In this document: piece by piece, positions 10,258 through 50,354 of the stretch
Numbering within the stretch: position 1 is the first letter of the stretch
Layout of the letters: each line of letters opens with the position of its first letter
Virus record (IMG/VR): IMGVR_UViG_3300044996_000496
Location: 1 to 64,000 of that record
DNA length: 64,000 nt
Strand: one strand, 5' to 3'
Source: a virus
Program-made: the position numbers and the translations under genes
The notes under the pieces: model-generated
The model's input: only the letters and a program-made list of their open reading frames with translations
Databases searched by the model: none
Told to the model about the DNA's origin: nothing

Positions 10258-10635
10258 ATGTGGACAAGTAGCTACACAGAGGACAACGACAAGTTTCCAG
10301 AGGCAGCAGCAGTGGCCAGATTTTTTGATAAAAATCCAGTCAAGGCTCTTCAGTTTGTTATTAATGTTGTAAAAGTTATTATGGTCAGATATGGAACTAA
10401 TGTAGAAAGTATTGATGTGAAAGATTTGGCCGAAATATGTTCTGAACATAATATTATCATAGCTGGTAACGGAACTGATAGTTCAATAGTAGCTATTCCA
10501 GATCATGAGGAAACGGCACTGGTAATGTATAAAAACAATTTACAAAAAGGAAACAGCGTTCCGCATGATGCAACAAAAGAATTGTTAAAACATCTTATTG
10601 CAGAAAAGGAGAAAAGGTTAAATGAGGGTTATTAG
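10258..10635 (+). CDS. Paralog of the 5572 protein
   Basis: 125 residues from ATG 10258, which has AAAGGA upstream; a TTG at 10234 in the same frame is less likely. It shares the helix, the V-x-x-x-D-L pattern and the AGNGTDSSIVAIPD strand with the 5572 protein. The two lack similarity in their tails. It overlaps the following lipoprotein gene by 14 bases. Confidence 0.65.
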   Translation: MWTSSYTEDNDKFPEAAAVARFFDKNPVKALQFVINVVKVIMVRYGTNVESIDVKDLAEICSEHNIIIAGNGTDSSIVAIPDHEETALVMYKNNLQKGNSVPHDATKELLKHLIAEKEKRLNEGY

Positions 10636-11437
10636 TGTTATTTTTATTTTTTGTTTGATTGTTTTATCTGGTTGCGATAGAACATGTGAAATTAATGATT
10701 GTGTTATGTTTGATGAATATGCGCTCATTAACAATATGTGGGGAATTTATAGAATAGAGCCTGGAGCAATATATAAACAATGCATAATGCATAATGATTA
10801 TAATCTTCCGGTCGGATGGAGATGGAATTGCACATCAACAATAAATAATGTTAAAGGATTCCCTCAAATTTTGTATGGGAAGAATCCGTTTTCTGGTATA
10901 CAAACAAAATGCGCATTACCTATACAATTAAAAAATATAAAAAATTTACGAGTTGTGCTCAACCAAACCTCTAGTTCAAATGGAATTTATAATCTTGCAT
11001 TTGATATGTGGATATCCTCTTCTCCAGATGATTTAGTTGCCACTCTAACGCATGAAATTATGATATGGATAGATGGAAATATGTTTCCGATTGGAGTTGA
11101 CCAAGGCGCTTATTACACTGATTGTACTATTGATAACAATGAGTACTCTGTATATCGTATACCAAAAAACTCAAATGGGGATTTTCTTATAATTTTTATT
11201 TTAAGTGATCTTATATCTAAGGATAAATACTCGTACCCAAGCCCATATGTATCAAATGTAACGTTGTGGCCATTGGATCTCAATTCCTTCTTCAAGTTTT
11301 TATACTCTGAAAAAATGCTTTCTGATGATTTGTACTTGGATGCCGTAGAACTTGGGACTGAGATATGGTGGGGAAATGGTGGAATAAAGATAAATAAATA
11401 TGACGTTGTACTTATTGAAGATATTGGATTGCCGTAG
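10622..11437 (+). CDS. Lipoprotein resembling glycoside hydrolase family 12 endoglucanase
   Basis: 271 residues. The N-terminus is a lipoprotein signal with lipobox LSGC (Cys18). The mature part shows GH12 landmarks: INNMWG (about 37-41), KGFPQILYGKNPF (78-90), LAFDMWIS (125-132), EIMIWID with candidate nucleophile Glu145, and ELGTEIWWG with candidate acid/base Glu247. GH12 enzymes cleave beta-1,4-glucans or xyloglucan by a retaining mechanism. The lipobox predicts membrane anchoring in the infected cell. A glucanase on the host envelope is unusual for a phage. It precedes the endolysin gene, which fits a lysis, release or nutrient role. Confidence 0.78.
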   Translation: MRVISVIFIFCLIVLSGCDRTCEINDCVMFDEYALINNMWGIYRIEPGAIYKQCIMHNDYNLPVGWRWNCTSTINNVKGFPQILYGKNPFSGIQTKCALPIQLKNIKNLRVVLNQTSSSNGIYNLAFDMWISSSPDDLVATLTHEIMIWIDGNMFPIGVDQGAYYTDCTIDNNEYSVYRIPKNSNGDFLIIFILSDLISKDKYSYPSPYVSNVTLWPLDLNSFFKFLYSEKMLSDDLYLDAVELGTEIWWGNGGIKINKYDVVLIEDIGLP

Positions 11438-11461
11438 GCTGTCGCACAAATGGAGTAGCGT

Positions 11462-11923
11462 ATGGAAATTACTGCATTTGATATTGCGCAACGTTTCATC
11501 GGAATTAAAGAGATGGGCGGTAATATGAATAATCCGCAGATCATGGCCATGCTTCAGCTGGATAACGGTTGGCCAAAAAATGATGAGGTGCCATGGTGCT
11601 CTGCGTTTGTGAATTATATTTGCTGGCTGTTGAGGCTTCCTAGGTCGAAGAGCCTAGCGGCTAGGTCGTGGCTTGGCGTTGGACAAAAAGTAAGAACCCC
11701 AATTGATGCTGTGGCTGGATTTGACATTGTTGTTCTTAGCAGGGGGGGTGGCGAACAACCGGGGCCTGAGGTTCTAGATGCCCCTGGGCACGTTGGGTTT
11801 TTTGCCGGATATTCAGGGAGCAACAGCCGCATTATTGATGTTTTAGGCGGCAACCAGAATGACTCTGTTAATGTGTCCAAATTTGATACATCTAGAATTT
11901 TAGATATTAGAAGACTTGCCTAA
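11462..11923 (+). CDS. Endolysin, TIGR02594-like CHAP/NlpC-fold peptidase
   Basis: 153 residues. Landmarks are VPWCSAFVN with candidate catalytic Cys46, AARSWLGVG (67-74), DIVVLSRGG, GHVGFFAG with His110, and LGGNQNDSV near 128-136. These match the TIGR02594 family, small cysteine amidases or endopeptidases that cut peptidoglycan. No signal peptide is visible, so release to the wall would need a holin. It lies directly after the GH12-like gene and before a strong terminator. Confidence 0.85.
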   Translation: MEITAFDIAQRFIGIKEMGGNMNNPQIMAMLQLDNGWPKNDEVPWCSAFVNYICWLLRLPRSKSLAARSWLGVGQKVRTPIDAVAGFDIVVLSRGGGEQPGPEVLDAPGHVGFFAGYSGSNSRIIDVLGGNQNDSVNVSKFDTSRILDIRRLA

Positions 11924-11988: not shown

Positions 11989-12435
11989 CTACCACTTCAA
12001 ACCAACCGACAGGTTAGTTGGCGGCTGTCCGTCCGCGTTATCAGAGTAAAGCTGGAACACTTCGAATGTAGCTGGACCTATCTTTGTCCCAACACCTGCC
12101 AGCGTGCTCCAATCCCCAAGTAGCGAGGAGGAAAACACTGTTCTAGGGTTTCCAAAATCAATATCATCAGTTGGCTTATTGATTCCGGCTGCTGCATCGA
12201 CATGCAGATATAAATCAATTGCCCTAACCCCGAAATACGTATAAGATTCGTAGTTAATTTCATTCAAAAGAGTCGCATTACTCCCGTAATGTACAAAATT
12301 AAGCCAGTTGTCCTGATGGACTCTATAATCACCAACTGTAAACGATGCCGCTTCTGACTTGTTGCATGTAATCCAAAGCAAGAAAATCACAACAATTGCT
12401 GCAATAATAATCATTCCTACTGTTCTCTTGTTCAC
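11989..12435 (-). CDS. Exported or membrane-anchored protein of unknown function
   Basis: 148 residues, GTG start with GAAAGGAAATG upstream. A hydrophobic N-terminal segment (about 8-22), followed by SEAASF, is a signal peptide or anchor. The mature part is aromatic and beta-rich and ends NLSVGLKW. The terminal aromatic residue after alternating residues recalls outer-membrane beta-barrels, but the protein is short. It stands alone on the minus strand and ends at the shared terminator. Confidence 0.65.
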   Translation of the reverse strand: MNKRTVGMIIIAAIVVIFLLWITCNKSEAASFTVGDYRVHQDNWLNFVHYGSNATLLNEINYESYTYFGVRAIDLYLHVDAAAGINKPTDDIDFGNPRTVFSSSLLGDWSTLAGVGTKIGPATFEVFQLYSDNADGQPPTNLSVGLKW

Positions 12436-14653: not shown

Positions 14654-14678
14654 TACATTTGTGGAGGATAAAGCGCTG

Positions 14679-15062
14679 GTGAAAATATTCAGTGCCATAG
14701 TGTTAATTATTATGTTTTCTAGCGGTGTTTTTGCCGATATTAGAACTTTCTACTTTACCGAACCATTTGACAATAGTTATGGCCCGATAAATGGACCAGT
14801 TGCATCAATAATAGCGAAATGGTCATATACAAATCCCTCCACAATGTCAGATGGTATTTGGTGGAACAGTGCGAACTTAGTTGCTGGAATTATAACAAGA
14901 GCAGCGCCTGGGGGCACTAGTTTACTTAAGTGCTCGGCCTATCCGTCCTCGTACATTATGCTCATGGTTTGTGATGAGGCAAACAATTGTACGTATTCAA
15001 ATGGTTGCTATGTTTCACCAACTGTTTGCACTGTTCCACACTATCTCGGTAACACAAAATGA
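14679..15062 (+). CDS. Small secreted cysteine-containing protein
   Basis: 127 residues from GTG 14679, which lies 10 bases after GGAGGA; the in-frame GTG at 14661 precedes that site. The signal peptide ends SSGVFA-D (about residue 20). The mature part is rich in S, T, W and aromatics, with six cysteines in the second half, possibly disulfide-bonded. No family recognised. It is one of several exported proteins in this phage. Confidence 0.6.
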   Translation: MKIFSAIVLIIMFSSGVFADIRTFYFTEPFDNSYGPINGPVASIIAKWSYTNPSTMSDGIWWNSANLVAGIITRAAPGGTSLLKCSAYPSSYIMLMVCDEANNCTYSNGCYVSPTVCTVPHYLGNTK

Positions 15063-19681: not shown

Positions 19682-20074
19682 ATGAGACGACTATTGATCG
19701 CTATGATTTTAATGTTAACACCATTAATGGCTTTCCCGGTGCAGTATGATAAAGATGGCGTGATTCCGTTTGGGGTTGATTTAACATGTAAAACTCCAGG
19801 TAGAACAATGACTGCATTTGAGGTAAAGCCGGTTATACAGCGTGTTTCTGGAGTTTCGGACACTCTGTCTGTGGCTCGTGTAACTGTAAGCAATACGGCA
19901 ACATCTGGTGATTACAGCATAACCATTGCAAGAGGGGAGAGGGTCGCAATAGCATCTAGAATAATTGAAACAGTTGGAGCTATTGAAATTGTTGGAGATT
20001 GGACTCAGTTTTCTGAGTTTGTAGAATATGTTGTGCCAAGTTCTGGCTGCTCGAAGCCGTGGTATAAGGGTTAA
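19682..20074 (+). CDS. Small secreted protein of unknown function
   Basis: 130 residues behind TAGGAGGAAAA. The signal peptide MRRLLIAMILMLTPLMA is clear, with cleavage near residue 17. The mature part is beta-rich with a threonine-rich middle and two cysteines. No family recognised. Confidence 0.6.
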   Translation: MRRLLIAMILMLTPLMAFPVQYDKDGVIPFGVDLTCKTPGRTMTAFEVKPVIQRVSGVSDTLSVARVTVSNTATSGDYSITIARGERVAIASRIIETVGAIEIVGDWTQFSEFVEYVVPSSGCSKPWYKG

Positions 20075-27116: not shown

Positions 27117-28068
27117 GTTATTTAATATTGGAAATTTTGAGATAAATACGTCTAGGTTTGATAATTTGTTGCATGGAAAAGTTGTTTTTGAGTTTGAGCG
27201 TAAATTTTCCGAGTATGTTGGCGCGAAGTATGCGTGTTCTTTTTCAAGTGCGAGTATGGCAATTTTTGCCATTTTTAAGTTATTTGATGATTTGCGTAGT
27301 ATTATAAATATACCAACAATGATACCACATGTTGTTGTTAACTCAATATATAACGCAGGATACAAAATCAATTTTGTTGATAATAACCAGTGGGTGGGCA
27401 ATTGCTACTTATTGCATACATTTCGAGATGGGGTTAAGATATTTGATTCTGCTCAACAGGTTGAACGTTTTCAATATAAAAATATGTGTAATGACAATGA
27501 TATTATGATATTTAGTTTTTATCCAACTAAACCTATTGGTAGTTGCGATGGAGGGATGGTTGTTTCAAATGATATGGATGTAATTAAAAGATTAAGAGAA
27601 TTTTCAATTAATGGAACTGCATTTAGTACAAACAGTTGGGATAGGGTAATTACCATGTGTGGCGGCTGGAAAGTGTATATGAACTCAGTGCAGGCATACA
27701 TGGCCAGTTGTAATTTAGATAATTTTGAGAATAAAATTGAAAAGTTAAATCAAATTAGAAAAATATATAATAAATTTATTGGAGAGATTTCTGTTACAAA
27801 TAATAGTAATCATTTATATAGAATAAGAGTAAGCAATAATAAAGAATTTTGTGCAAAAATGCTTAAAGCTGGAATTATGTGTGGAATACACTATGAAACA
27901 CTTCATAATCATGACAAGTATAGAGATATCTGCGTCAATGATGTTGGTTGTGATTTTGTTAAATCTATATTTGATTCCAAAACAGTGGCAAGCATACCAT
28001 TTCACGATAATATGAGTTATAGCGAAGCAGAGTATGTCGTTAAAAGCGCTATTGCATTAAGTAATTGA
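27109..28068 (+). CDS. Second, diverged DegT-family PLP aminotransferase-like protein
   Basis: 319 residues from ATG 27109. YACSFSSASMAIFAIF, VKIFDSAQQVE with Asp113 and IFSFYPTKPIGSCDGGM with Lys141 mark PLP-binding positions, so it may be active although it is shorter and diverged. It follows the canonical copy directly. The pair could make two different amino sugars or form a heterodimer. It overlaps a convergent gene by 12 bases at its end. Confidence 0.8.
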   Translation: MIKLFNIGNFEINTSRFDNLLHGKVVFEFERKFSEYVGAKYACSFSSASMAIFAIFKLFDDLRSIINIPTMIPHVVVNSIYNAGYKINFVDNNQWVGNCYLLHTFRDGVKIFDSAQQVERFQYKNMCNDNDIMIFSFYPTKPIGSCDGGMVVSNDMDVIKRLREFSINGTAFSTNSWDRVITMCGGWKVYMNSVQAYMASCNLDNFENKIEKLNQIRKIYNKFIGEISVTNNSNHLYRIRVSNNKEFCAKMLKAGIMCGIHYETLHNHDKYRDICVNDVGCDFVKSIFDSKTVASIPFHDNMSYSEAEYVVKSAIALSN

Positions 28069-28932
28069 TTTTGATATTTCAATTATTTTTTTTGCCCAGT
28101 TGTTTCTGCTATATTTTTGAACCCCAATAAATCCATTATATCTTATTCTATTTCTTTCATCTGTATTTTTTAAGTAATATTGTATTTTTTCATTTAGATC
28201 ACTTATGGAGTCGAATATGACCAAGTGTTCTTTATCAATAAATATGTCAGATCTTCCGAGCCAATCATTTGTTAGTAGAAATCCTCCAGCGGCCAATATT
28301 TTGTATACCCTATCCGACATACAGTTAGCTGTACACATATTGAGATTGATTTTACTTCTGCTAACAACGTTTGCATGCTCCTTGGCAAATGCGTTCTGGA
28401 ATACCTGTATTTTTGTTGTTACAGAATTTATAAGATCTGCTCTGTAGCCGTATATACTCCCAATAAATGAAACATCTATGTCCTGTTCAGTGCAATGTCT
28501 TGGCCTGTCAATGTCCTGGTCGAAGCCCTCTGGAACTAAAAAGGTATTTTTGTTGAGCCTGTATGCATCTTGATATACTTGTGGTTTGTCACAGCATACA
28601 AATGAGCAGTAGAGGGCTTTTGTTCTAGCCTCGGCGTCCCAATTTGGTGTTGCATCCATAAACCATAGGCATGTTTTTGAATATTTATTGCACTCATGAA
28701 TTACTCGTATGTTTACAAGATTTCCTTTGCTGAAGATAACTAAGTCTGGAAGTTCGGTTTTGCATACTTCAATTATTTCTAGGTCTCTTTTTTCCCTGCT
28801 GCCAAGCTCGTCTGCGCGTACCCTAAAATTGTATTTTATTACCTCTGCTCCGCTGTGTTCTAGTCCCCTGGCCTGCGAATTGTTCGTTGACTTGTTAAGT
28901 TCGTCAAATACTGCAATAAATAATATTTTCAT
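28057..28932 (-). CDS. Glycosyltransferase, GT-B fold, CgeB-like
   Basis: 291 residues. LFIAVFDELNKSTNN at the start, LVPEGFDQDI in the middle, and SKINLNMCT...DRVYKILAAGGFLLTND (about 197-225), the donor-binding signature of CgeB/Glyco_trans_1_2 proteins. First of the leftward arm to be met from the left, but last in its operon. Probably adds a sugar to a phage or host acceptor. Confidence 0.75.
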   Translation of the reverse strand: MKILFIAVFDELNKSTNNSQARGLEHSGAEVIKYNFRVRADELGSREKRDLEIIEVCKTELPDLVIFSKGNLVNIRVIHECNKYSKTCLWFMDATPNWDAEARTKALYCSFVCCDKPQVYQDAYRLNKNTFLVPEGFDQDIDRPRHCTEQDIDVSFIGSIYGYRADLINSVTTKIQVFQNAFAKEHANVVSRSKINLNMCTANCMSDRVYKILAAGGFLLTNDWLGRSDIFIDKEHLVIFDSISDLNEKIQYYLKNTDERNRIRYNGFIGVQKYSRNNWAKKIIEISKSIT

Positions 28933-36960: not shown

Positions 36961-38637
36961 ATGGAGAGTAAAGTTGGCGCTCGTCCTGACAGTAACCAGG
37001 TTTGCGTTGATAGGCGTAAGCGTGAGGTTAAGTTTGTAGAACAGGTTACTGGACAAAAGGTTGAATATGGTATGAATAGCAGGGACGAGCTTGGTGGTCC
37101 TGTTATTGTTTATTATTCTGGTGATGGTCAAAAACTCGGCTCCAGCAGAGATATGCACGATTCTTCAAAATCGCATGGTGATATTGATCCTGTTGTTGGA
37201 TTTGTAGTTCCAAGAAAACAACAAACTGCTATTAAGTATTTAGACGAGGCTAGGGAGTATAATGATCAAAATGCAACAATAAATAAACAAATGGAATTAT
37301 CCAATAAATTATATTTAAATGAGGGAGTTATAGGAACTGCAATAGATATTTTGGTTGAGTTTGCTGTTACTGAACCATATTGGGAGAATGTAGATAACCA
37401 AAACGCTCTTGAAATATTAAATCAGTGGAAAGATTATTTAAATTACGGGAAACCGAATATAGTTCAGGGAATAGAGGGGTTGAGTCGCGAAATGGCTTTA
37501 GATTGGTTTATTTGTGGCAATGTTTTTCCGTTTGTATCTTGGAGTTCTAAGGCTGGAAGGCAATTTAAGTTAAGAAGAGACAATGTGTCTCTTCCAGATT
37601 CTATATCGCTTTTAAATCCTCTTGCTGTAGAGATTCCAGATGGACCAGTTGAGTTTGGGCAAAAAGTAATTTTTCTTAAATTAAGTGATAAAGTTAGGGA
37701 TGCAATTAAATATAAAGGAAACGATGATATTGAATTAAAAATTATTAGGGATAATATGAGTCAGGAATTGATAAATAGTATAATTAAATCAAAAGATGAT
37801 AAATTGTTTATTCCAATTGATCCAAGATATGTTTGTCACCTAAGGAGAAAGGGAAGAAGCTATCAGCCATATGGCGTTCCGTACTTGACGAGATCATTTG
37901 GCGCAGTTGCCCATAAAAGAAAACTGAAAGCTTTGGACGATGCTACTACAGACGGTTTGATAAATAAAATTACTGTTTTTAAGATTGGTGATAAGGACAA
38001 TCCTAAAACATGGAAGCCAGAGCGTATACGTGCATTTGCTCGCTTGTTATCTAGCCCGACCGCTACAATGTACCTAGTATGGGCGTATGATATTGATAAA
38101 ATAGAGGTTGGGCCTAGTGGAGATGTGCTAAATTTTGACAAGAAATATGAGAACGCAAACAGGGATATCCTTGAGGCGCTCGGGGTGCCGACCACACTTA
38201 TTCTTGGGGCGCAAGGCGGAAACCTGCAGGACATTTGGGTTACTGTTTTGGCACTTCTTGAACGTCTTGAAGATTTTAGAAAAAATGCTGCTATATATTT
38301 TAGCAATATTGGTAGAGAAATTATGATAAATAATGGATTTGGTAATATTTATCCAAAGCTAGAATATGGTCCGGTAATGCTTAGAAATGAAGAAAAGGTT
38401 AAAGATCTTATACTTAAGCTTTATGATAGAGGGTTGTTATCGTTTAAGACAGCCATACGTGATGCTGGTTACAGTTATGAGAAGGAACTAAAGATAAGGA
38501 GAGAAGAGGCCAAAGAAGAGCTTGATAAAGTTTTTATGCGCAGAGATCTGCCATATTCTCCTGCAAAAAATAAACAAGAATTAAATAGCCCAGAAGATGG
38601 GAGACCTAGCGATTCGAGTGATGATGGCGTAAAGTGA
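36961..38637 (+). CDS. Portal protein
   Basis: 558 residues, 15 bases after terL. Features of portal proteins: a long helical wing, LFIPIDPRYVCHLRRKGRSYQPYGVPYLTRSF (about 280-312), a clip/stem region with RIRAFARLLSSPTATMYLVW, and GVPTTLILGAQGGNLQD (about 405-421). It forms the dodecameric ring at one head vertex where DNA enters and the tail attaches. Acidic low-complexity C-terminus. Confidence 0.9.
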   Translation: MESKVGARPDSNQVCVDRRKREVKFVEQVTGQKVEYGMNSRDELGGPVIVYYSGDGQKLGSSRDMHDSSKSHGDIDPVVGFVVPRKQQTAIKYLDEAREYNDQNATINKQMELSNKLYLNEGVIGTAIDILVEFAVTEPYWENVDNQNALEILNQWKDYLNYGKPNIVQGIEGLSREMALDWFICGNVFPFVSWSSKAGRQFKLRRDNVSLPDSISLLNPLAVEIPDGPVEFGQKVIFLKLSDKVRDAIKYKGNDDIELKIIRDNMSQELINSIIKSKDDKLFIPIDPRYVCHLRRKGRSYQPYGVPYLTRSFGAVAHKRKLKALDDATTDGLINKITVFKIGDKDNPKTWKPERIRAFARLLSSPTATMYLVWAYDIDKIEVGPSGDVLNFDKKYENANRDILEALGVPTTLILGAQGGNLQDIWVTVLALLERLEDFRKNAAIYFSNIGREIMINNGFGNIYPKLEYGPVMLRNEEKVKDLILKLYDRGLLSFKTAIRDAGYSYEKELKIRREEAKEELDKVFMRRDLPYSPAKNKQELNSPEDGRPSDSSDDGVK

Positions 38638-38664: not shown

Positions 38665-39042
38665 GTGGAGCGTACAGAAAATAAAAATGATAGTAATGGT
38701 AGATCATTTAGCATTATTGCCGTTATTACAATGTTAGTTGGATTTGCAACTATATGGAATGTGATGAACGCACAAATAAATTCACTTAAGAGTACCATTG
38801 ATGCAATTGGTGTTAAGGCCGAGGCCCACTCATTTGTTGATAGTCACCCAGGTACTAGTGAAAGACTTGGCAGACTGGAAGAAAGATTATCAGCAACGGA
38901 GGCGTCAATTTGTCACACTCAAGATGTAGCCAATGTTAGACACCAGGAGATACAGATTGACACGCAAATGTTATGGAAAAAGGTTTTTGGTATCGATTAT
39001 CCGTCCAGGGAGTATTGGCCGTTTAAAGGGGGATCAAAATGA
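38665..39042 (+). CDS. Membrane-anchored coiled-coil protein
   Basis: 125 residues, GTG start. A hydrophobic segment at about 16-34 predicts one transmembrane helix, followed by a heptad-rich region (SERLGRLEERLSATEA). It overlaps the next tiny gene by four bases. May be part of lysis or of the exported-protein group that follows. Confidence 0.62.
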   Translation: MERTENKNDSNGRSFSIIAVITMLVGFATIWNVMNAQINSLKSTIDAIGVKAEAHSFVDSHPGTSERLGRLEERLSATEASICHTQDVANVRHQEIQIDTQMLWKKVFGIDYPSREYWPFKGGSK

Positions 39043-39146
39043 TTTTGTCATTTGTGTTGGTAGCGTTGGCGATTTTGTTTGCGTTTGAACCCAGGCTCGT
39101 TACCAACCATTTATATCATTTGGCTGATCGAATTTTTGGTAAGTAA
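39039..39146 (+). CDS. 35-residue membrane peptide
   Basis: MILSFVLVALAILFAFEP followed by a short polar tail. One transmembrane helix. The ATG overlaps the previous stop. Its small size and position before exported-protein genes suggest a holin-like or accessory peptide, but this is unproven. Confidence 0.5.
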   Translation: MILSFVLVALAILFAFEPRLVTNHLYHLADRIFGK

Positions 39147-39171: not shown

Positions 39172-39966
39172 ATGTTTAAGAGAGTTGCTATAGCTATTAT
39201 TTTATGTTTTGTTATGAGTTCTAATGTTTTTGCGGACGCTCTTTCAAACTATTATTTGCAACTTATTTATGAAGAGTTAAATGGAACTGCTCCATTGGGG
39301 CGCGGTGAAGCTGTAACTGACTCTATGCTCCTAGAGTGGATTCTTGATTCTTTGGAGGTTATAACTGTCCAAGATTCTACTCAAATTTCTCTATATAATA
39401 CTTTATTTGAGATTAAGGATTCTTTAGTATCTAAGTTAGATTCGGTAATTTCGTGTAATTTGATTTTGGCGGATAAGCAGGACTCATCTTTAGGCTGGCT
39501 TGGTTCTATAGATTCAACGGCCAATGATATGGAGGTTACTTTGAATGCAATACAGGCTTCTATCGATGATAGTGTTATTGCCAAACTGAATCTTATCTTT
39601 AGGGAACTTGAACCCTCTGATACGATGGCGATATTCCAATATCCAAGTGCATCTCTTGAATTGAACGATTCTTTTACTGTTATTTTAGCGAATACGGATA
39701 GTAGCGTGTATTATCCTTCAAAGTTTTGGGGATATGATCTAGTAAAATATGGAACAAATGATGGACCAATTAGGGCCATTTTACATTTTACAAGTGGTCA
39801 TATTGATACTTTGGATATTCCATTTACTGGCCTGAGTCTTGGTGCGCAGGGGAGTTTTCTTCCTTCTGCCGTTTTTTACCCAATGGAATTGGATTCGATT
39901 CGTATTAAGTGTACGGAGGCACTTGATTACTTGTCTATATTTTGGTTTGCTAAACATACTCAGTAA
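39172..39966 (+). CDS. Exported protein, paralog A of a flanking pair
   Basis: 264 residues behind AAGGAGG. The signal peptide MFKRVAIAIILCFVMSSNVFA is followed by DALSNYYLQ. The mature part has aspartate-serine-rich helices (DSTANDMEVTLNAIQASIDDSV) and a C-terminal beta region with YGTNDGPIRAILHFTSGHIDTLDIPFTGL and an end FWFAKHTQ. The gene at 41756 repeats these landmarks. It lies inside the head module, which is unexpected for a Sec substrate. Confidence 0.7.
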   Translation: MFKRVAIAIILCFVMSSNVFADALSNYYLQLIYEELNGTAPLGRGEAVTDSMLLEWILDSLEVITVQDSTQISLYNTLFEIKDSLVSKLDSVISCNLILADKQDSSLGWLGSIDSTANDMEVTLNAIQASIDDSVIAKLNLIFRELEPSDTMAIFQYPSASLELNDSFTVILANTDSSVYYPSKFWGYDLVKYGTNDGPIRAILHFTSGHIDTLDIPFTGLSLGAQGSFLPSAVFYPMELDSIRIKCTEALDYLSIFWFAKHTQ

Positions 39967-39972
39967 TGGAGT

Positions 39973-40089
39973 GTGAAAGTGGGCGACGACGAAGGTTGGG
40001 ACATTTTCACCGTATGTTTTAGAAATTTTGTTATTTTTGTTGTTTGTATTTTTATTGCCGTTGTCGTTATTTCTTATGTTTGTAAATAA
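39973..40089 (+). CDS. 38-residue membrane peptide
   Basis: GTG start (39973, or 39979 in frame) after GGAG. The polar N-terminus is followed by a long hydrophobic segment (about 16-36) ending in CK. A single transmembrane helix is predicted. It occupies the gap between two exported-protein genes. Confidence 0.45.
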   Translation: MKVGDDEGWDIFTVCFRNFVIFVVCIFIAVVVISYVCK

Positions 40090-40102
40090 GGAGTGGTTTG
40101 AC

Positions 40103-40948
40103 ATGAGGGTTTTGAGTTTATTTTTAATTTTATTGTTTAGTTCTTTAAGTTTTGCCGATACGGCTCGACCTTTGATAAGCACGAGTTTTGAAGATGGTTT
40201 TGCCGGATTGGCCGGATTAGGGGCTGATACGTTAGAGTGGGGTATAGTGTTATACAATGGGGACGGCGCGAGCTGTTATATTGATTCAACGGTTTCTTAT
40301 TTGGGTTCTAAATCTTTAGCGGTTACTGGAGATTCTGGAGCAGCTGGCATAAGGTGCTGGGCTGAGATTTTCTTTCCTATGAGCAAATGGTTACACGTTA
40401 GGTATATGGCTCGTTATGATCGGCCATTTGTTGGTCTTGGAGAGCATCCATCTGGATTGATACACTATTGGAATGACGTTAAAGATAACCCAATTGGTGA
40501 TGGTAAAAAAATGTGCAGAATTGGTTTACAATCCTCAAGTGTAACCCTTATGTCGTGCGGACTGGAAGACACACTTCGAGTGTTGCCGTCAGATTCGTTG
40601 GCGCTTTATTTTGTTACACGCGATGATACATGTGGTTTGAATTCGCAGTTACCGACTAGGTGTTATGGAATTATCAAAAGGGATGAATGGCATCGTTATG
40701 ACATAATAATGAAAAATGAGTCAAGTGGATATATTAAGCGTTATGTTGATGGCAAATTGGTTTATTCTGAATCAGCAGTATTGGATACATCTGCGGCGAA
40801 TTATTTGCATCTTGGAATTTGGAATTCTTTTGGTACTCAGATTGGTGAAGGTTCTTATTATTATGATTGTTTATTAGTTGATACTTCATATAGTATTCCG
40901 TGTCGTGCGGCAGAGTTGGGGCTTGATTCGCTTCCGATGAGAAGGTAG
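40103..40948 (+). CDS. Exported ConA-like lectin/lyase-fold protein
   Basis: 281 residues from ATG 40103 with AAGGAG upstream. Signal peptide MRVLSLFLILLFSSLSFA. The mature part has EWHRYDIIMKNESSGYIKRYVDGKLVYSES (about 197-226), typical of concanavalin-like polysaccharide-binding or lyase domains, and starts with a STSFEDGF strand. Six cysteines suggest disulfides. Could bind or cut a surface glycan. Confidence 0.65.
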   Translation: MRVLSLFLILLFSSLSFADTARPLISTSFEDGFAGLAGLGADTLEWGIVLYNGDGASCYIDSTVSYLGSKSLAVTGDSGAAGIRCWAEIFFPMSKWLHVRYMARYDRPFVGLGEHPSGLIHYWNDVKDNPIGDGKKMCRIGLQSSSVTLMSCGLEDTLRVLPSDSLALYFVTRDDTCGLNSQLPTRCYGIIKRDEWHRYDIIMKNESSGYIKRYVDGKLVYSESAVLDTSAANYLHLGIWNSFGTQIGEGSYYYDCLLVDTSYSIPCRAAELGLDSLPMRR

Positions 40949-40956
40949 GTGTTGAT

Positions 40957-41739
40957 GTGAAGAAAATTATTGTTGGGATTATATGTTTAACTTTTATTTC
41001 AAGTTTAGTTTTTCCGTCCTCTCGGATTTTTTATGCTGGCATGGAAACTGGAGATTTTAGTGAATTTTCTAGCACAAGAACGAACGGGACTGCAACATTA
41101 ACAAATACTGGGGTATATCAGTTTTGCGGAACAAAGAGTGCAATGTCATCTGTCTCATCTGGTGTTAGTAGTAGAGCATTTGCAAACAAAGGAATTACGT
41201 CATCCAGTTATTTGCATATCAAGACAAGATTTTGCAATCAGTGGGATTCTGGTGGCTCAAACCCTAAAACAATTTTTGGATGTTTTAAAGTTAGTGACGG
41301 AACAAATTCAAGATTGACGGTTCGTTTAAAAGATGCAACTCCGAGTAATTATAATAGTAACTTTACATTCAATGTTGCGGTAAAAGATTCTGCGGCTCAT
41401 GCAAATATTTCGACCGACATTGCTACTCCATTGGTTACTGACAGTGTATGGTTTGATTTTGATGTTTTTATTTCAAAGGGTGTATCAGATGGAGAAATTT
41501 CTCTTTGGGTAAACGGAGTTTTACTGCTATCGCTTGATACACTACATACAAGTGGTGCCATGCCAGATAGTATTTCTTGGGGATGCATAGCAGGTTGGAC
41601 CACTGGAGATATTGGTACTGTTTGTTTTGATGAAATTGTTATGGACACGATGAGTTGTGGCCCTCCGTGTGGTTTGGTTTTTAGAAATGGAATTAGACAG
41701 GTTTGGTCTGGGATGAAGAGTTGGTTTTCATGGCTATAG
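40957..41739 (+). CDS. Exported ConA-like fold protein
   Basis: 260 residues, GTG start. Signal peptide MKKIIVGIICLTFISSLVFP. Mature part: RIFYAGMETGDFSEF at the start, SSYLHIKTRFCNQWDSG, and SDGEISLWVNGVLLLSLDT (about 182-200), the jelly-roll pattern of LamG/ConA-like domains. It ends with a hydrophobic W-rich segment. Sits between the ConA-like 40103 gene and paralog B of the flanking pair. Confidence 0.63.
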   Translation: MKKIIVGIICLTFISSLVFPSSRIFYAGMETGDFSEFSSTRTNGTATLTNTGVYQFCGTKSAMSSVSSGVSSRAFANKGITSSSYLHIKTRFCNQWDSGGSNPKTIFGCFKVSDGTNSRLTVRLKDATPSNYNSNFTFNVAVKDSAAHANISTDIATPLVTDSVWFDFDVFISKGVSDGEISLWVNGVLLLSLDTLHTSGAMPDSISWGCIAGWTTGDIGTVCFDEIVMDTMSCGPPCGLVFRNGIRQVWSGMKSWFSWL

Positions 41740-41755
41740 ATTGGGGGAGTGTTTC

Positions 41756-42526
41756 TTGAAAAAATTATTTAGTGTTCTATTTTTCTTACTTGTTGTTTTT
41801 CAATCGTTTGGATTCTGCGATCAGGATTTTGATGCAATTTCTAATTATTATTTAAATGAAATTCACAAAATATATATGGGAACAGGAGTGGCGAGGACAG
41901 ATTCTCTACTGTATGAGCTGATCCGCAGTGAATTGGGAAAACAGAAGCTTCAGGATACAACACAAATTAAGGTTTATGATTTAGCCGATACAATATTAAC
42001 TATATTTGTAACAAAAGCGGACTCTATGATTTTGTGTAATCTTGATTATGGTATATTACAAGACAGTATAAACGCTAAATTATACGGAATTGATGGATCT
42101 TTTACTGCAGCAGAGGAAACACTAAATTTTATTCAAAATGTAATTGATGACAGTGTTTCTTCAAAACTTAATTTAATTGAGTATAACATTGCTCCGAAAG
42201 ATACGTGTCTTATAAGGCTTTTCTCTTCTCTTGCTGCGGATTCTACGTTTCTTATTTATTACCCAGGATATCCGTCTTTTCGGTGGAGTTATAATTTTGT
42301 GAGATATACCACAAATGATGGTCCAATTAGGTTTTTGCTATATTTTACTAGTGGGCGTGCCGATACTTTAGACGCTCCGTTTACTGCCCTAAATATTGGT
42401 GCTTTGGGTGGATTTTTACCACAACCCGTTGTTTTTTCGATGGAGCTTGATTCTATTCGAGTTACTGCTACTGGGGCGTTGAGTTACTTGGAGGTTATTT
42501 GGTACGCGAAACATACTTTGCAATAA
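41756..42526 (+). CDS. Exported protein, paralog B of a flanking pair
   Basis: 256 residues from TTG 41756 with GGGGGAG upstream. Signal peptide MKKLFSVLFFLLVVFQSFGFC. The mature part repeats the landmarks of the 39172 protein: DAISNYYLNEI, IDDSVSSKLNLIEY, TNDGPIRFLLYFTSGRADTLDAPFTAL and an end WYAKHTLQ. The two paralogs flank the two ConA-like genes, so the block looks like a functional cassette. Confidence 0.7.
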   Translation: MKKLFSVLFFLLVVFQSFGFCDQDFDAISNYYLNEIHKIYMGTGVARTDSLLYELIRSELGKQKLQDTTQIKVYDLADTILTIFVTKADSMILCNLDYGILQDSINAKLYGIDGSFTAAEETLNFIQNVIDDSVSSKLNLIEYNIAPKDTCLIRLFSSLAADSTFLIYYPGYPSFRWSYNFVRYTTNDGPIRFLLYFTSGRADTLDAPFTALNIGALGGFLPQPVVFSMELDSIRVTATGALSYLEVIWYAKHTLQ

Positions 42527-42595: not shown

Positions 42596-44389
42596 GTGGA
42601 AAACAGTTTGTCCGTAGGCACAGTAAGCGCACTTGACGGCACACTAGTTGTTGATGATTTAATTATTGCGTATGTTAAGAAAACTCCCAATAAAAATGAA
42701 TGGTGTATTTATTCAAAAAGCGGAAAAAAGATGGGATGTTATAAAACTAAGGATGAGGCTGTTGAGAGACTTAGACAAATAGAATATTTTAAACATAATA
42801 AAGCAAATGAATTTATTGATGTTGATGATGTTATTGCGTCATTTGTAATTTATAATTTAGTTTTAAATGGTAGTGAAATTGATGTTTGTGATTATTTTGA
42901 TGAATATTTGTGTGGATGTGATGAGTTAGCAGAGGGTGTTGATGTTACCGAGAATTATTTGCGTTTTAGGCAAACGGAACCAGATAAATATGATTCTTTC
43001 AGAATTATTAACATAAGTGTTAAACAAGGTATTAAAGCCGTTTTGGGGATAATTAATGGACCACCAAAAAAAACAGAAATACAATCTTATTTGTTTGATA
43101 AGAGTAAGTGGACGACCAAGGATGCGACAAAGTGGATTAAAGATCATGGCAAGAAAGCATCAGCGTCAGCTAATTCCAATATGTTAAGAATAAAGTTTAA
43201 TGTATCTGATGTGAAAATTGAACAGCCTGATGCTGTGGCGATTGCTAACATAGACTCATTTTTTGATGAAATTGATAAAAATAGACAAAAAGATTTAATG
43301 TATATAGCATTTAAGCTTGTTCACGAGGGCACGAATGCAAATTTAGATCATTTTTTGTATGATGAGTTAAAGTCTGCGCAAAAAACGCCTATAAATAAAC
43401 CATTGAATTGGCTGCATTGGGAACCAAATATTGGTGTTATTTATGACGCGACTTTAGTTGACGCTACTGATATTGAAGGGGCATATATTGAGGCCCATGC
43501 AGTAGTTTGGAAGTATAAGTATCGCGATTATGCTATGGAAATCGAAAACCGTCATAGCGAGGGAGAGCTTTTCTTTAGCATGGAAGTATGGTATTCGCAG
43601 TCAGAGTGCCCAATTTGTAAGAAAACATACAGTGCTAGGGAAGAAGCTGCTGGCAAAACCTGTGAACATTTGGCTAGTAGATTTTACGAAAGAGCGGAAG
43701 ACCCTAACATGGCAACATGTTACCGCATACTTCGAGGTCTTACATTTGGAGGTGCTGCTGTAGTTGATCTCCCGGCTGATAAGGGAGCGGAGGCTTTGGC
43801 GGTTGCCTCCAAAAACAAAGCTGATAGTGATAAGGAGGTGTTTGATGCTATGAAGCGACTTGATGATGGGACGTTAGTTTATACTGAAGCAGAGATAGAA
43901 GAGCTTAAGGATAAGGTTAGAGCAAGCGTCCGCGAGGAATTGAGTAACGAGGGTGCCCATGCTAAGGAGTTGGAGGATCGCGATAAACAGATAGCTGATC
44001 TGCAAAAGACAATTGAGGGCTTAAACACAGAGTTAGCCGAGGCACAGAAGAAGCTGGATGAAACAATAAAAGAATTTGATGAGCATAAGTCTAGTATAGA
44101 GAAAGAAAAGCTTGTAGCGAAAAGAACGGCTAGTTTGATAGAGGCAGGATATCAGTTTAGTCAAGATGAAAAGGAAAAAGAAGCTGTTATTGCCTCGTTT
44201 GTTGCTATGGATGAGAATGCATTTGAATTTGTATTAAAGACAATTAAGGATAAGAATGAGGAAGTGGCAGCAGCTACTGCAAGTAGAAAAACTGGTGGAG
44301 TTCCAGTTGGTTCTACGGTAACTTCCTCGGGCGGAACAACGCTTGGGCAAAAGATGAGCAAGATTAAGGATTTATTGACAAAGGTTTAA
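42596..44389 (+). CDS. Prohead protease/scaffold-type fusion protein
   Basis: 597 residues, GTG start behind AAAGGAG. N-terminal EWCIYSKSGKKMGCYKTKDEAVERLRQI recalls an Xkdf-like module. WTTKDATKWIKDHGKK follows, then IDRNRQ...KPLNWLHWEPNIGVIYDATLVD and EAHAVVWKYKYRDYAMEI, as in capsid maturation proteases. A four-cysteine site (CPICKK...C) is inserted. The C-terminal third is a long coiled coil typical of scaffolds. Position upstream of the capsid gene supports this. The catalytic residues are not clear to me. Confidence 0.65.
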   Translation: MENSLSVGTVSALDGTLVVDDLIIAYVKKTPNKNEWCIYSKSGKKMGCYKTKDEAVERLRQIEYFKHNKANEFIDVDDVIASFVIYNLVLNGSEIDVCDYFDEYLCGCDELAEGVDVTENYLRFRQTEPDKYDSFRIINISVKQGIKAVLGIINGPPKKTEIQSYLFDKSKWTTKDATKWIKDHGKKASASANSNMLRIKFNVSDVKIEQPDAVAIANIDSFFDEIDKNRQKDLMYIAFKLVHEGTNANLDHFLYDELKSAQKTPINKPLNWLHWEPNIGVIYDATLVDATDIEGAYIEAHAVVWKYKYRDYAMEIENRHSEGELFFSMEVWYSQSECPICKKTYSAREEAAGKTCEHLASRFYERAEDPNMATCYRILRGLTFGGAAVVDLPADKGAEALAVASKNKADSDKEVFDAMKRLDDGTLVYTEAEIEELKDKVRASVREELSNEGAHAKELEDRDKQIADLQKTIEGLNTELAEAQKKLDETIKEFDEHKSSIEKEKLVAKRTASLIEAGYQFSQDEKEKEAVIASFVAMDENAFEFVLKTIKDKNEEVAAATASRKTGGVPVGSTVTSSGGTTLGQKMSKIKDLLTKV

Positions 44390-46102: not shown

Positions 46103-46126
46103 TCAGTTCGAGGGAAGGAGAGGGTG

Positions 46127-48520
46127 ATGAATGGTCAAATTGAATTTAACAAGGATCTTATAACGCTTCTTTGGTATGGAGATTCTCCGTGTGTATCAAC
46201 TGGATTTGGCATAGTCAGTCAGAGTGTATTGTTTAGATTATGGCAAACTGGTAAATATAGAATAGTTGCCGTTGGAATTAATGATCGAGGCGAAGACCAC
46301 CCATTAAAAAAGCTCCCAAATTTCCATGTTATGCCCTGTCCTTATCTTGACAGGGATCCATATGGTTATCAAGTGTTGCCGGAAGCGATTAAGCGATTTA
46401 AACCAGATGTCATTTTTGCTTTAAATGACATTTGGTTACTTGCTGGCGATAGTGGTAAGGGGAATCTAAATTGGTGGGAGAGTTTGTTGCGCCAGCATGC
46501 CCCAGGTGTGCCGTGGGCAATATACTTCCCAATTGATGGTCGTCCTCTTGCTAAGGAGTGGGGGCGCGTTATGCGCTCCTCGTGGTCGCCTGTTGTATAC
46601 AGTAAATACGGATATGATGTTATTAAAGATGAAATACCTGATGTTAATCCTGAGTTGATTTATCATGGAGTTGATCTTGAGACGTTTAGGCCGATAGGTG
46701 ATAAAGAAAAAATACTTTTTGTTAGAAGACATTTGGGTATTCCAGAAGATCATAAACTTATTGGTGTAGTTGGCAGAAATCAGCCAAGAAAGAACATACC
46801 GCTTGCTCTTAGGATATTTAAGTATTTTAAGGATGGGTATAAAAAATGTAAAAATTGTGGTGGATATGCATCATTACATGAAAGATCGTGTGAGTTGTGT
46901 GGTATGAGTGATTTTGATAAAGTATATGATGGATTTAACAAAGTTTCTATGTATTTGCATATGAACTTAAGAGATGGATTTGGATTTAACATTCCTAAGG
47001 TAATAGCTGATGAGAAGGTAAGTGGAATATCTTTTAATCCCGATCATCATATTGCTCATGGCGTTCCGGCTGAGGTTTTGAATTTACTATATAATTCTTT
47101 TGATGTTATGTTTTTGCCAACTATGAGTGAAGGATTTTGTCTTCCAATTTTGGAGTCAATGGCCGCTGGTACACCAGTGATAGCAACAGCCGGAACTGCC
47201 CAAAAAGAATTACTTGTGGATGGTGGCGGAATTCCAATTATTCCACAAGATTATATTATTTTAACCGATGCTGCAAATGTAAGACGACATATTATGCGTA
47301 TACCGGACGCAGTAAATGCTCTTGAAAAGATTCTAACTGATCAAAAATATCATGATGAGTTGGCAATAAAAGGGCTTAGATACGCAGCCTCTCGCGGGTG
47401 GGATGTGTCGGCTCAGCAGTTTGATGAGTTAGTTACTAAAATGTTGAATAAGCGTATATCAGTTGTTGATTCTTTCAATGAAACTAAAGAACCAAAAATT
47501 TTATTCTATAGACCAATAGGTTCTGCTGGAGATATATTAATTACAACCCCAGTAATACACGCTGTTCGTGAATTGTATAAGGATTCAGATATAGTGTATG
47601 CTGTTCCTGAAAAATATATAGAGTTATTAGATGGGAACGATGATATAAATAAAGTTATTCCATGTGATTTTATGTGGGATGGCAGTAGAAGAAAGGGCGC
47701 TGCACAGTCAACCAAAATAGCTAAAGTTGATTTATTTGGAGTCGAGGATAGAATAGAGTCTGCTTTAGCTCCAAATGTTATTTTTAGTAGACAAGAGATT
47801 TATTCTAATCATTGCAAGGTAAAGCCAGAGAGTATGAAGTCGGTGTACAATATTTCTGCACAAGAAAAAGAGTGGGCAGATGCTCTAATTCCGCAGAACG
47901 GTGAGTACAAAATAGGTATAAAGGTTGACACCGAAGAGCCGTATTTGGCTATTAGTGCTGGAGAATGGATAAAATTAATTGAGTTTTTCGTAAAACGTAA
48001 TGATGAGAAAATTTATATTTTCGTACAAGATAGAGCGCATTTCCCAGTTGATGAGTGGATGAGGCTTGTTCCAGATGGAGTTACTGTTTTTTGTTTTGAT
48101 AAAGAAGAAAAACCATACAGAAAAATGATAGCAGCAATGAATAATATGAATATGATCGTTTCTTGTGATGGAAGTTTTATTCACTTTGCTGGGATGCTTG
48201 GGAAACCGCTTGTTGCAATTTATGGACCAAATGATTGGCGACAAAAGTTAAAACATTATAAGAATGTGTTTCCGGTATTTAACTCAATGTGTCAAATGAT
48301 GCCTTGCTGGAGAAATCAGAATTCTCCATGTAGATTAACTGGTCAACAAGAGAGTGTGTGTTTAAGGGAAATGAAGGCCGGGATGATAGTATCCGCTATA
48401 ATTAAGGCAAAAAAAGAATCGCTAATATCTGAAAATAAATCAGTAGCAAAAACACAAGAAGAGATTCAAAGAAAAACAATATTAAGGGAAAAAAGAAAGC
48501 AAAGAAGGAACAGAAGATAA
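46127..48520 (+). CDS. Two-module glycosyltransferase (GT4-type plus GT9-type) with zinc-ribbon insert
   Basis: 797 residues from ATG 46127 with AAGGAGAGGG upstream. Module 1 (about 1-440) is a GT-B transferase: VYSKYGYDVIKDEIP, IYHGVDLETFRP, VVGRNQPRKNIPLALRIFK, then MFLPTMSEGFCLPILESMAAGTPVIAT, the E-x7-E donor motif of GT4. A CKNCG...CELCG zinc ribbon is inserted near 240. Module 2 (about 455-740) starts ILFYRPIGSAGDILITTPVI and has CDGSFIHFAGMLGKPLVAIYG, the GT9 layout. The tail is a basic helix. Placed between capsid and neck genes. Confidence 0.85.
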   Translation: MNGQIEFNKDLITLLWYGDSPCVSTGFGIVSQSVLFRLWQTGKYRIVAVGINDRGEDHPLKKLPNFHVMPCPYLDRDPYGYQVLPEAIKRFKPDVIFALNDIWLLAGDSGKGNLNWWESLLRQHAPGVPWAIYFPIDGRPLAKEWGRVMRSSWSPVVYSKYGYDVIKDEIPDVNPELIYHGVDLETFRPIGDKEKILFVRRHLGIPEDHKLIGVVGRNQPRKNIPLALRIFKYFKDGYKKCKNCGGYASLHERSCELCGMSDFDKVYDGFNKVSMYLHMNLRDGFGFNIPKVIADEKVSGISFNPDHHIAHGVPAEVLNLLYNSFDVMFLPTMSEGFCLPILESMAAGTPVIATAGTAQKELLVDGGGIPIIPQDYIILTDAANVRRHIMRIPDAVNALEKILTDQKYHDELAIKGLRYAASRGWDVSAQQFDELVTKMLNKRISVVDSFNETKEPKILFYRPIGSAGDILITTPVIHAVRELYKDSDIVYAVPEKYIELLDGNDDINKVIPCDFMWDGSRRKGAAQSTKIAKVDLFGVEDRIESALAPNVIFSRQEIYSNHCKVKPESMKSVYNISAQEKEWADALIPQNGEYKIGIKVDTEEPYLAISAGEWIKLIEFFVKRNDEKIYIFVQDRAHFPVDEWMRLVPDGVTVFCFDKEEKPYRKMIAAMNNMNMIVSCDGSFIHFAGMLGKPLVAIYGPNDWRQKLKHYKNVFPVFNSMCQMMPCWRNQNSPCRLTGQQESVCLREMKAGMIVSAIIKAKKESLISENKSVAKTQEEIQRKTILREKRKQRRNRR

Positions 48521-49629
48521 TGAAAAAGCTAAATGTATTTTTCCCAGTGCCAAGAATTTATGGTCCATCGTTGCACGAGACAAAGAATAAGTTATTTGAA
48601 TACGGTAAAGATTTTGCAAAAGAGGCTGACGATTGGATAGATGCTGATGTTATAGTTTTACAATTAATAGGAGACCCGGACAGAAAAAATTTAGTTCATC
48701 CGTCTGAGGTAGTTTTTAGTGATTTAATTAAAGTAATTATGGATAATATGAATCATATTCCAACTATTGTTTTTCCGTTGTGCAATATAAACAATACCAG
48801 CAATTGGAGATATTTATTTGAAAATGCTTCTATGATTTACAGTTATTTAGATGTTGATTATCAAATTAAGCACGTTGATGGGCAATTATTACCATTTGTG
48901 TTTAATAAGTCAGTTGTTGTGCGAGAGCCTCTTGGGGTGGAACCTGGAGATTTTTTTAGAGAAGACGATATGCAAAAACAATATTTAATTTATACATTTG
49001 GATTTGATAAAGAGACAGAATCAATAGACATAATTTTTGATGCAACAGTATTATTTAACTCAACCAGAGAAAATTTGGGTCTTCCGATATTGAAGATGTT
49101 GCATAGCGGGAGGGACTTTGGTTTTGATAGTAAGTATTATCAATTTGAGACGCCTGCTCCACAAAATCAAAAGGGTATAGTTAGAGCTAGGTACAATAGT
49201 TCTTACTTTGCCAATGCGCTTAGAGCAGACGCTTGGGTTGAGGGTGGATTTGAGATGGCTAACATAGAGGCTCCGTTGTGTGGATGTCAACCTATAACTT
49301 ATAATTTTGAGTGTTATCAGCATTGGTTTAAGGGTATTTCGGAATTTGTTAATGTTCCACTAAACACAGACCCAAGAAGTTTATCTAATAGAAAACACGT
49401 TGTTGAGCAATTGGTTAATATTTTTAATCGTGGAACTAATGGAAGAGATAAAATCTATAAGTATACTGTTTCAGTTAATGATAGTGATGATGAAGATGAA
49501 AAAACTAAAGAAATTGGAAGTAAATTAGATTTGTTTGACGATAAAAGAAACATGATTTATGAAAGATTTTTGTGGGAAAATGTTGCAAGTACATTTTGGA
49601 AAGAGGTGTTGAATAAATGTGCAAAATAA
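48520..49629 (+). CDS. Glycosyltransferase-like protein (GT-B fold)
   Basis: 369 residues, sharing one base with the preceding stop. VLQLIGDPDRKN is followed by a donor-side segment with RARYNSSYFANALRADAWVEGGFEMANIEAPLCGCQPI (about 222-260), where an acidic residue precedes a C/G loop as in GT-B enzymes. A charged C-terminal domain follows. Acts with the flanking transferases. Confidence 0.65.
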   Translation: MKKLNVFFPVPRIYGPSLHETKNKLFEYGKDFAKEADDWIDADVIVLQLIGDPDRKNLVHPSEVVFSDLIKVIMDNMNHIPTIVFPLCNINNTSNWRYLFENASMIYSYLDVDYQIKHVDGQLLPFVFNKSVVVREPLGVEPGDFFREDDMQKQYLIYTFGFDKETESIDIIFDATVLFNSTRENLGLPILKMLHSGRDFGFDSKYYQFETPAPQNQKGIVRARYNSSYFANALRADAWVEGGFEMANIEAPLCGCQPITYNFECYQHWFKGISEFVNVPLNTDPRSLSNRKHVVEQLVNIFNRGTNGRDKIYKYTVSVNDSDDEDEKTKEIGSKLDLFDDKRNMIYERFLWENVASTFWKEVLNKCAK

Positions 49630-50354
49630 GTATTGTTACTGTTTTAAGAAATTCAGCTCATATATTTGATAAGTTTATTGATTGTATTGCCAGTAACATG
49701 GGTTTAGATTACGAATTAATCTTAGTTGATAATCATAGTAGAAAAGATTGTGCTAGTTTTTATGATTATGTGTTGTGTAAGCATTCATTGCAAGATAATG
49801 TTTTATTTATTAATAATGATAAAAATTTAATGTTTACAAGAGCCGTAAACCAAGGATTGGAAAAATCCAGTGGACAATACATATGGTTGTTAAATCCAGA
49901 TGTATATATCGAAAAGGATGTTGATAAAAAATCTGTTGATTTTTTTGTTAATCATTTAAATATTGGTATTGCTGGATATAAACTTGTTAAAGTTGATGGA
50001 TTTATTGAGCATGCCGGAATATGGGAAGAGGGTGGCGATCATAGGGGGCGTGGAGAGTTAGACGGTGCCGATAAGTATAATACTCCAGAGTGTTGTAGGT
50101 GGGTTACCTTTGGCGCTGCCATGTTTACTCGTGATCTGTATATTAAGTTAGGAACATTGGATGATAAAATATATCCACATTTTGGATCAGACAGAGAGTA
50201 TTGTGATAGGGCTAAAAAAAGTGGATACGATGTGTGGTATTTGCCGTATAAGTTAATACATGTTTATGGTAACTCTTGTAGACCTTATGTTTTTGATGAT
50301 TTACCTGATTATCTTATGGAAAACGGGAAACCAGCAAGAAAAATATGGAAGTAG
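49617..50354 (+). CDS. Glycosyltransferase family 2 (rhamnosyltransferase-like)
   Basis: 245 residues. ISIVTVLRNSAHIFDKFIDCI, DYELILVDNHSRKD, VNQGLEKSSGQYIWLLNPDVYI (with the D-x-D equivalent N-P-D-V) and YPHFGSDREYCDRAKKSGYDVWYLP. Complete for a GT-A catalytic domain. Third transferase in the block between capsid and neck genes; overlaps the previous gene by 13 bases. Confidence 0.85.
   Translation: MCKISIVTVLRNSAHIFDKFIDCIASNMGLDYELILVDNHSRKDCASFYDYVLCKHSLQDNVLFINNDKNLMFTRAVNQGLEKSSGQYIWLLNPDVYIEKDVDKKSVDFFVNHLNIGIAGYKLVKVDGFIEHAGIWEEGGDHRGRGELDGADKYNTPECCRWVTFGAAMFTRDLYIKLGTLDDKIYPHFGSDREYCDRAKKSGYDVWYLPYKLIHVYGNSCRPYVFDDLPDYLMENGKPARKIWK

Follow-up and report, generated by a model that had tools for sequence, protein, structure and literature searches.

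Four predicted exported proteins encoded in a slot between the portal and protease genes of an uncultured tailed phage

An uncultured tailed phage carries, between its portal gene and its prohead protease/scaffold gene, four genes for proteins with predicted Sec-type signal peptides, here designated P1, P2, P3 and P4. The 64,000-base stretch of DNA that was analysed, hereafter the window, comes from an IMG/VR virus record of 87,578 bases. We tentatively propose that P1–P4 form a late, Sec-exported, glycan-interacting module that lies in a slot of the head operon and possibly acts on the cell surface of the dying host rather than as part of the virion. Contact with glycans outside the cytoplasm would be the type of function that fits the module best. 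Exported accessory proteins of phages are already known as a kind, of which the P1–P4 cassette would be a variant.

Gene order and operon structure

The portal gene (36961-38637) and the prohead protease/scaffold gene (42596-44389) form the left and right borders of the slot, and they and all genes between them lie on the plus strand. The portal was assigned by a tblastn match to annotated portal proteins (E 3e-4) and by 33-38% identity to the portals of related viral contigs. The protease/scaffold assignment draws on matches to PF05929 (E 0.005) and to head scaffold/maturation-protease PHROGs, all of them weak, together with synteny and 32-42% identity to the protease of relatives. P1 (39172-39966), P2 (40103-40948), P3 (40957-41739) and P4 (41756-42526) share an operon with three genes for small membrane proteins, which the preliminary description did not list, and the genes of this operon are spaced by 8-69 bases or overlap slightly. 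The first of the three encodes a protein of 125 aa (38665-39042; coding log-odds +0.36), for which a hydropathy scan indicates one N-terminal membrane helix followed by a coiled coil. This protein has a weak match to a holin (E 0.27), and it occupies the same position as the slot protein of a relative (L055 6145-6519) and resembles it in layout, with no significant homology between the two. The other two are putative membrane peptides, one of 35 aa with a single hydrophobic helix and weak coding support (39039-39146; +0.01) and one of 36 aa (39979-40089), an open reading frame with a coding log-odds of +0.31.

The in-frame codon log-odds of P1–P4 range from +0.27 to +0.36 per codon and those of the other frames are all negative, as in known phage genes. 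The codon use of the four genes is phage-like and resembles that of their neighbours. A Shine-Dalgarno-like stretch precedes each start. P2 most likely starts at the ATG at 40103 and not at the TTG at 40028 with which its open reading frame begins, and the most likely start of P4 is the TTG at 41756. Promoter-like and terminator-like sites in the slot operon do not exceed the number expected by chance, the promoter scan covering sites of the sigma-70 type.

Predicted export signals

Virion genes of tailed phages normally encode cytoplasmic proteins. Signal peptides were predicted in P1, P2, P3 and P4 by rule-based scans, which look for a positive n-region, a hydrophobic core and small residues at positions -3 and -1 and are a heuristic rather than a trained predictor. 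In controls, the same rules recover Lom and Bor of lambda and the amidase that phage Stahl secretes. Within the structural modules of the control phages, just two genes on the coding strand are flagged, lambda lom and a lysis gene of crAss001, and no signal peptide is found in the tailspike and lectin genes of crAss001. Export of P1–P4 is likely on these signals, from which both translocation and cleavage are predicted. The preliminary description had placed four Sec signal-peptide proteins between portal and protease/scaffold and had called exported proteins unusual among capsid genes. All four open reading frames are present and coding and carry signal peptides in the scans, and the control phages bear out that it is unusual for head genes to include soluble exported proteins.

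The inner and outer protein pairs

P2 matches PF14099 (Polysacc_lyase), a family of jelly-rolls of the heparinase I / PL20 glucuronan lyase type, with an E-value of 9e-7 and 29.4 bits (30.0 bits in a genome search), which places it at about the curated cut-off of 29.9; the match is confined to the C-terminal portion of this profile (positions 139-207 of 210). P3 reaches E 0.008 and 16.5 bits against the same profile, below the cut-off. The similarity between P2 and P3 is weak and non-random (z = 6, 0 of 300 shuffles), and a two-sequence BLASTP detects nothing between them. A structure model of P2 is all beta and of low confidence (pLDDT 37, pTM 0.41). Among its better Foldseek matches are X122, PL20 glucuronan lyase, legume lectins and alginate lyase, with TM-scores of only 0.2-0.3. 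The X122 structures 8q2a, 8q29 and 8q28 take five of the top seven positions, the model being too poor for an assignment to the X122 / Cip1 jelly-rolls, and a PL20 glucuronan lyase (2zzj) stands second in the list. X122 jelly-rolls are domains of large redox proteins from a shipworm symbiont, and neither a clear activity nor binding to plant glycans was found for them (PMC10916295). The fold matches of P2, which come from a low-confidence model, agree with its PF14099 match but are no proof.

P1 and P4 are 47% identical over 242 aa (E 1e-63; shuffle z = 74), and the motifs SNYYL, TNDGPIR, FTSG and AKHT are invariant between them. A structure model made from these two sequences has a pLDDT of 35; it would divide P1 into a signal helix, a middle part made of helices and a beta domain at the C-terminus, a fibre-like layout given by this low-confidence model only. 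The middle region of both proteins is probably helical and coiled-coil. The paralogy of the outer pair, proposed earlier from these landmarks, is thus confirmed, and the ConA-type jelly-roll proposed for the inner pair is probable for P2, where the profile match lies at about the cut-off, and tentative for P3.

Searches with P1 and P4 gave no homolog among IMG/VR records, GTDB genomes, INPHARED phages or 14 other phage records, nor did a search of PLSDB plasmids with P4. P2 likewise had none in IMG/VR and INPHARED, and P3 had none in INPHARED and in six related records. Several candidate relationships were rejected. An origin of P1/P4 by fusion of the coiled-coil protein and the 120-150 aa beta-rich protein found in the slot of relatives (see below) gained no profile or shuffle support. 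Homology of P1/P4 to signal-peptide fibre-like proteins of relatives was not significant over the full length, the best piece giving z 3.8 for P1 and -0.3 for P4. P2 and P3 look like the C-terminal region of a relative's 1244 aa protein by eye, but z stays below 2. A similarity of P2 to the GH12 lipoprotein of the same phage (z 5.8; E 0.18) is confined to one short stretch and was set aside.

The slot in related phages

The terminase, the portal and the capsid protein led to relatives, with identities of about 32-42%. Portal and protease genes are 0.4-1.4 kb apart in these relatives. In Slash-like Bacillus phages and the Microcystis phage MaeS, which have the same terminase-portal-protease-capsid order and about 30% terminase identity, the two genes are only 12-20 bases apart and the slot is lacking; in one more distant group the gap is 43 bases. 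The slot of the relatives contains a membrane coiled-coil protein and usually a beta-rich protein of 120-150 aa. Several of the coiled-coil proteins begin with a signal or anchor and have a C-terminal helix rich in glycine. Profile and shuffle tests detect no homology between the slot proteins of the relatives and P1–P4. Because the gap is present in the clade and minimal in the outgroups, and because its contents differ, the interval between portal and protease is an insertion slot specific to the clade, with varying filling.

A four-gene cassette conserved in relatives, for which the preliminary description suggested a search, is not supported: homologs of P1–P4 were not found in the collections searched, so that the exact cassette is not conserved, and the slot of the relatives holds other genes. 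The IMG/VR and GTDB scans were seeded by short peptides and may miss distant relatives. A search for the host among GTDB prophages with a terminase profile found nothing, and a tRNA scan for a hint of the host found none.

Signal-peptide proteins in the structural modules of relatives

Of the four large records in the group, a small sample, three encode soluble signal-peptide proteins within their structural modules, by different genes at different places. In one relative (G009), proteins of 1157 aa and 691 aa (L069 8793-12266 and 12275-14350) are encoded between capsid and connector genes. In a second (G005; IMGVR_UViG_3300029891_000001), proteins of 1244 aa and 338 aa (L084 14018-17752 and 13012-14028, minus strand) are encoded among tail genes, and the pair is flanked by two paralogous genes with 46% identity (L084 12479-18281, minus strand). 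This layout, with paralogs around two exported genes, is that of P1–P4, the proteins themselves being unrelated. The structural module of another record (G001) showed no protein of this kind.

Homology links the 1157 aa protein to the 1244 aa protein (30% over 665 aa, E 3e-68), and their positions differ between the two phages. To the eye, both resemble a putative beta-helix joined to an SGNH-hydrolase-like domain, for which there was no Pfam match; the 1244 aa protein has no Pfam, PHROG or INPHARED match. The 338 aa protein contains a tail-fibre repeat (phrog_892, E 2e-9), and the 691 aa protein matches Disaggr_repeat just under the cut-off. None of these proteins is a homolog of P1–P4. The general idea that proteins of glycan type encoded among head and tail genes are exported is supported, and relatives show it in other forms. 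A broader generalization, to which we give little credence, is that the lineage exports fibre-like and glycan-degrading proteins via Sec, encodes them in its capsid and tail modules, and has them act from outside the cytoplasm, or even join the virion there, when the cell lyses or afterwards.

Proposed role and alternative explanations

In the module that we tentatively favour, P2 and P3 would be jelly-roll proteins that, once exported, bind or cleave a polysaccharide on the surface of the infected cell, and P1 and P4 would be exported fibre-like proteins made alongside them, with the jelly-roll proteins, the envelope or surface glycans as possible binding partners. In favour of this reading are the four adjacent signal-peptide genes packed closely between portal and protease, the PF14099 match of P2, the slot as a feature of the clade, the signal-peptide proteins of two relatives and a predicted exported GH12-type lipoprotein of the same phage (see below). 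Against it are the weak fold evidence for P3, the low confidence of both structure models, the X122 findings and the heuristic nature of the signal-peptide scan. The position of the four genes in the structural operon implies expression at the time of assembly, and the benefit would most likely fall at the end of the cycle. Surface glycans would be masked or stripped, so that the progeny could leave and escape capture by the dying cell and its debris. We infer the late timing and the benefit for release from gene position alone, and a glycan is the presumed target of P1–P4. The soluble exported proteins of the head operon and the different exported spike- or fibre-type proteins of two relatives suggest a lineage that alters glycans outside the cell during assembly. 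If so, virion production would be linked to release or to receptor destruction, and phage proteins that bind or cleave glycans would become newly available.

Superinfection exclusion or receptor blocking, in which the exported proteins would occupy or hide a receptor on the infected or lysogenised cell in the manner of a moron, is unlikely. Lambda Lom and Bor, which are morons, are likewise exported host-surface proteins encoded in a phage genome, and lom lies between tail genes much as P1–P4, exported proteins of surface type, lie within a structural block. Here, however, the head operon contains four consecutive genes for soluble exported proteins, their codon use is phage-like, and no homology was found. 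The slot is absent in the outgroups and occupied by other genes in close relatives. The promoter and terminator of its own and the distinct composition of a moron were not found for P1–P4. Exclusion would be more useful early in infection, but P1–P4 belong to a late head operon without such signals of their own. In addition, P1–P4 match no known exclusion or defence family, and a defence library gave nothing.

It is rather unlikely that P2 and P3 are auxiliary carbohydrate enzymes which, together with a GH12 lipoprotein of the same phage, help the infected cell to digest environmental polysaccharide. The PF14099 match of P2 would suit this role, as would the lipoprotein itself (10622-11437), which is of endoglucanase type (PF01670, E 2e-14), has a GH12 endo-beta-1,4-glucanase (2jem, E 3e-19) as its best solved relative and, by eye, contains both catalytic-type Glu motifs. 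Its gene directly precedes an endolysin-type gene (11462-11923; TIGR02594, E 5e-24), and this region (10622-11923) has no match in INPHARED phages or 11 related records. However, the GH12 gene lies far away from the head operon that encodes P2 and P3, and P1 and P4 are not enzyme-like. Moreover, no lyase catalytic residue can be assigned in P2 or P3, neither of which aligns reliably to a solved lyase.

Virion proteins are an improbable explanation, whether as head fibres or decorations whose hydrophobic N-terminal stretch is an uncleaved anchor or assembly element, or as exported proteins that are added to the particle once the cell has lysed. P1–P4 do lie between portal and protease, and crAss001 likewise encodes carbohydrate-type proteins between its portal and major capsid genes, namely head-fibre, tailspike and lectin-annotated proteins; one signal-peptide protein of a relative also has a tail-fibre repeat. 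However, P1–P4 have textbook signal peptides with cleavage-type motifs at their N-termini, whereas none of the portal-to-capsid proteins of crAss001 has a signal peptide, and no homology to P1–P4 was found in the phage collection. Furthermore, P1–P4 have no significant PHROG head or tail match (best E 0.11).

A lysis module, in which the membrane and exported proteins of the slot would help to disrupt the envelope, is still less probable: it would suit the 125 aa protein, with its membrane helix followed by a coiled coil, and the weak XhlA/hemolysin/holin matches of the slot membrane proteins of relatives, but those matches are coiled-coil driven, P1–P4 match no lysis family, no endolysin, holin or spanin was found in the cassette, and the endolysin-type gene lies elsewhere.

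Other genes of the phage

Three genes directly follow the major capsid gene (46124-50354). They encode a fused GT4 and GT9-like glycosyltransferase of 798 aa, a 369 aa protein without family matches and a GT2-like protein, and none of them has a blastp match in the relatives that were compared. Further glycosyltransferases are encoded at 28057-28932 on the minus strand and at L047 14774-15493. Small proteins with signal-peptide-like starts and no Pfam matches are also encoded outside the head module, at 14661-15062, 19682-20074 and 11989-12435 (minus strand). Downstream of the window lie genes for two giant proteins, one of 1982 aa with a PA14 domain at its start (L047 31-5979; record 64031-69979) and one of 2813 aa that starts with fibronectin type III (L047 6033-14474; record 70033-78474). 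A small protein encoded on the minus strand at L048 3537-3974 matches peptidase C39 (E 1e-7), which is unexpected in a phage.
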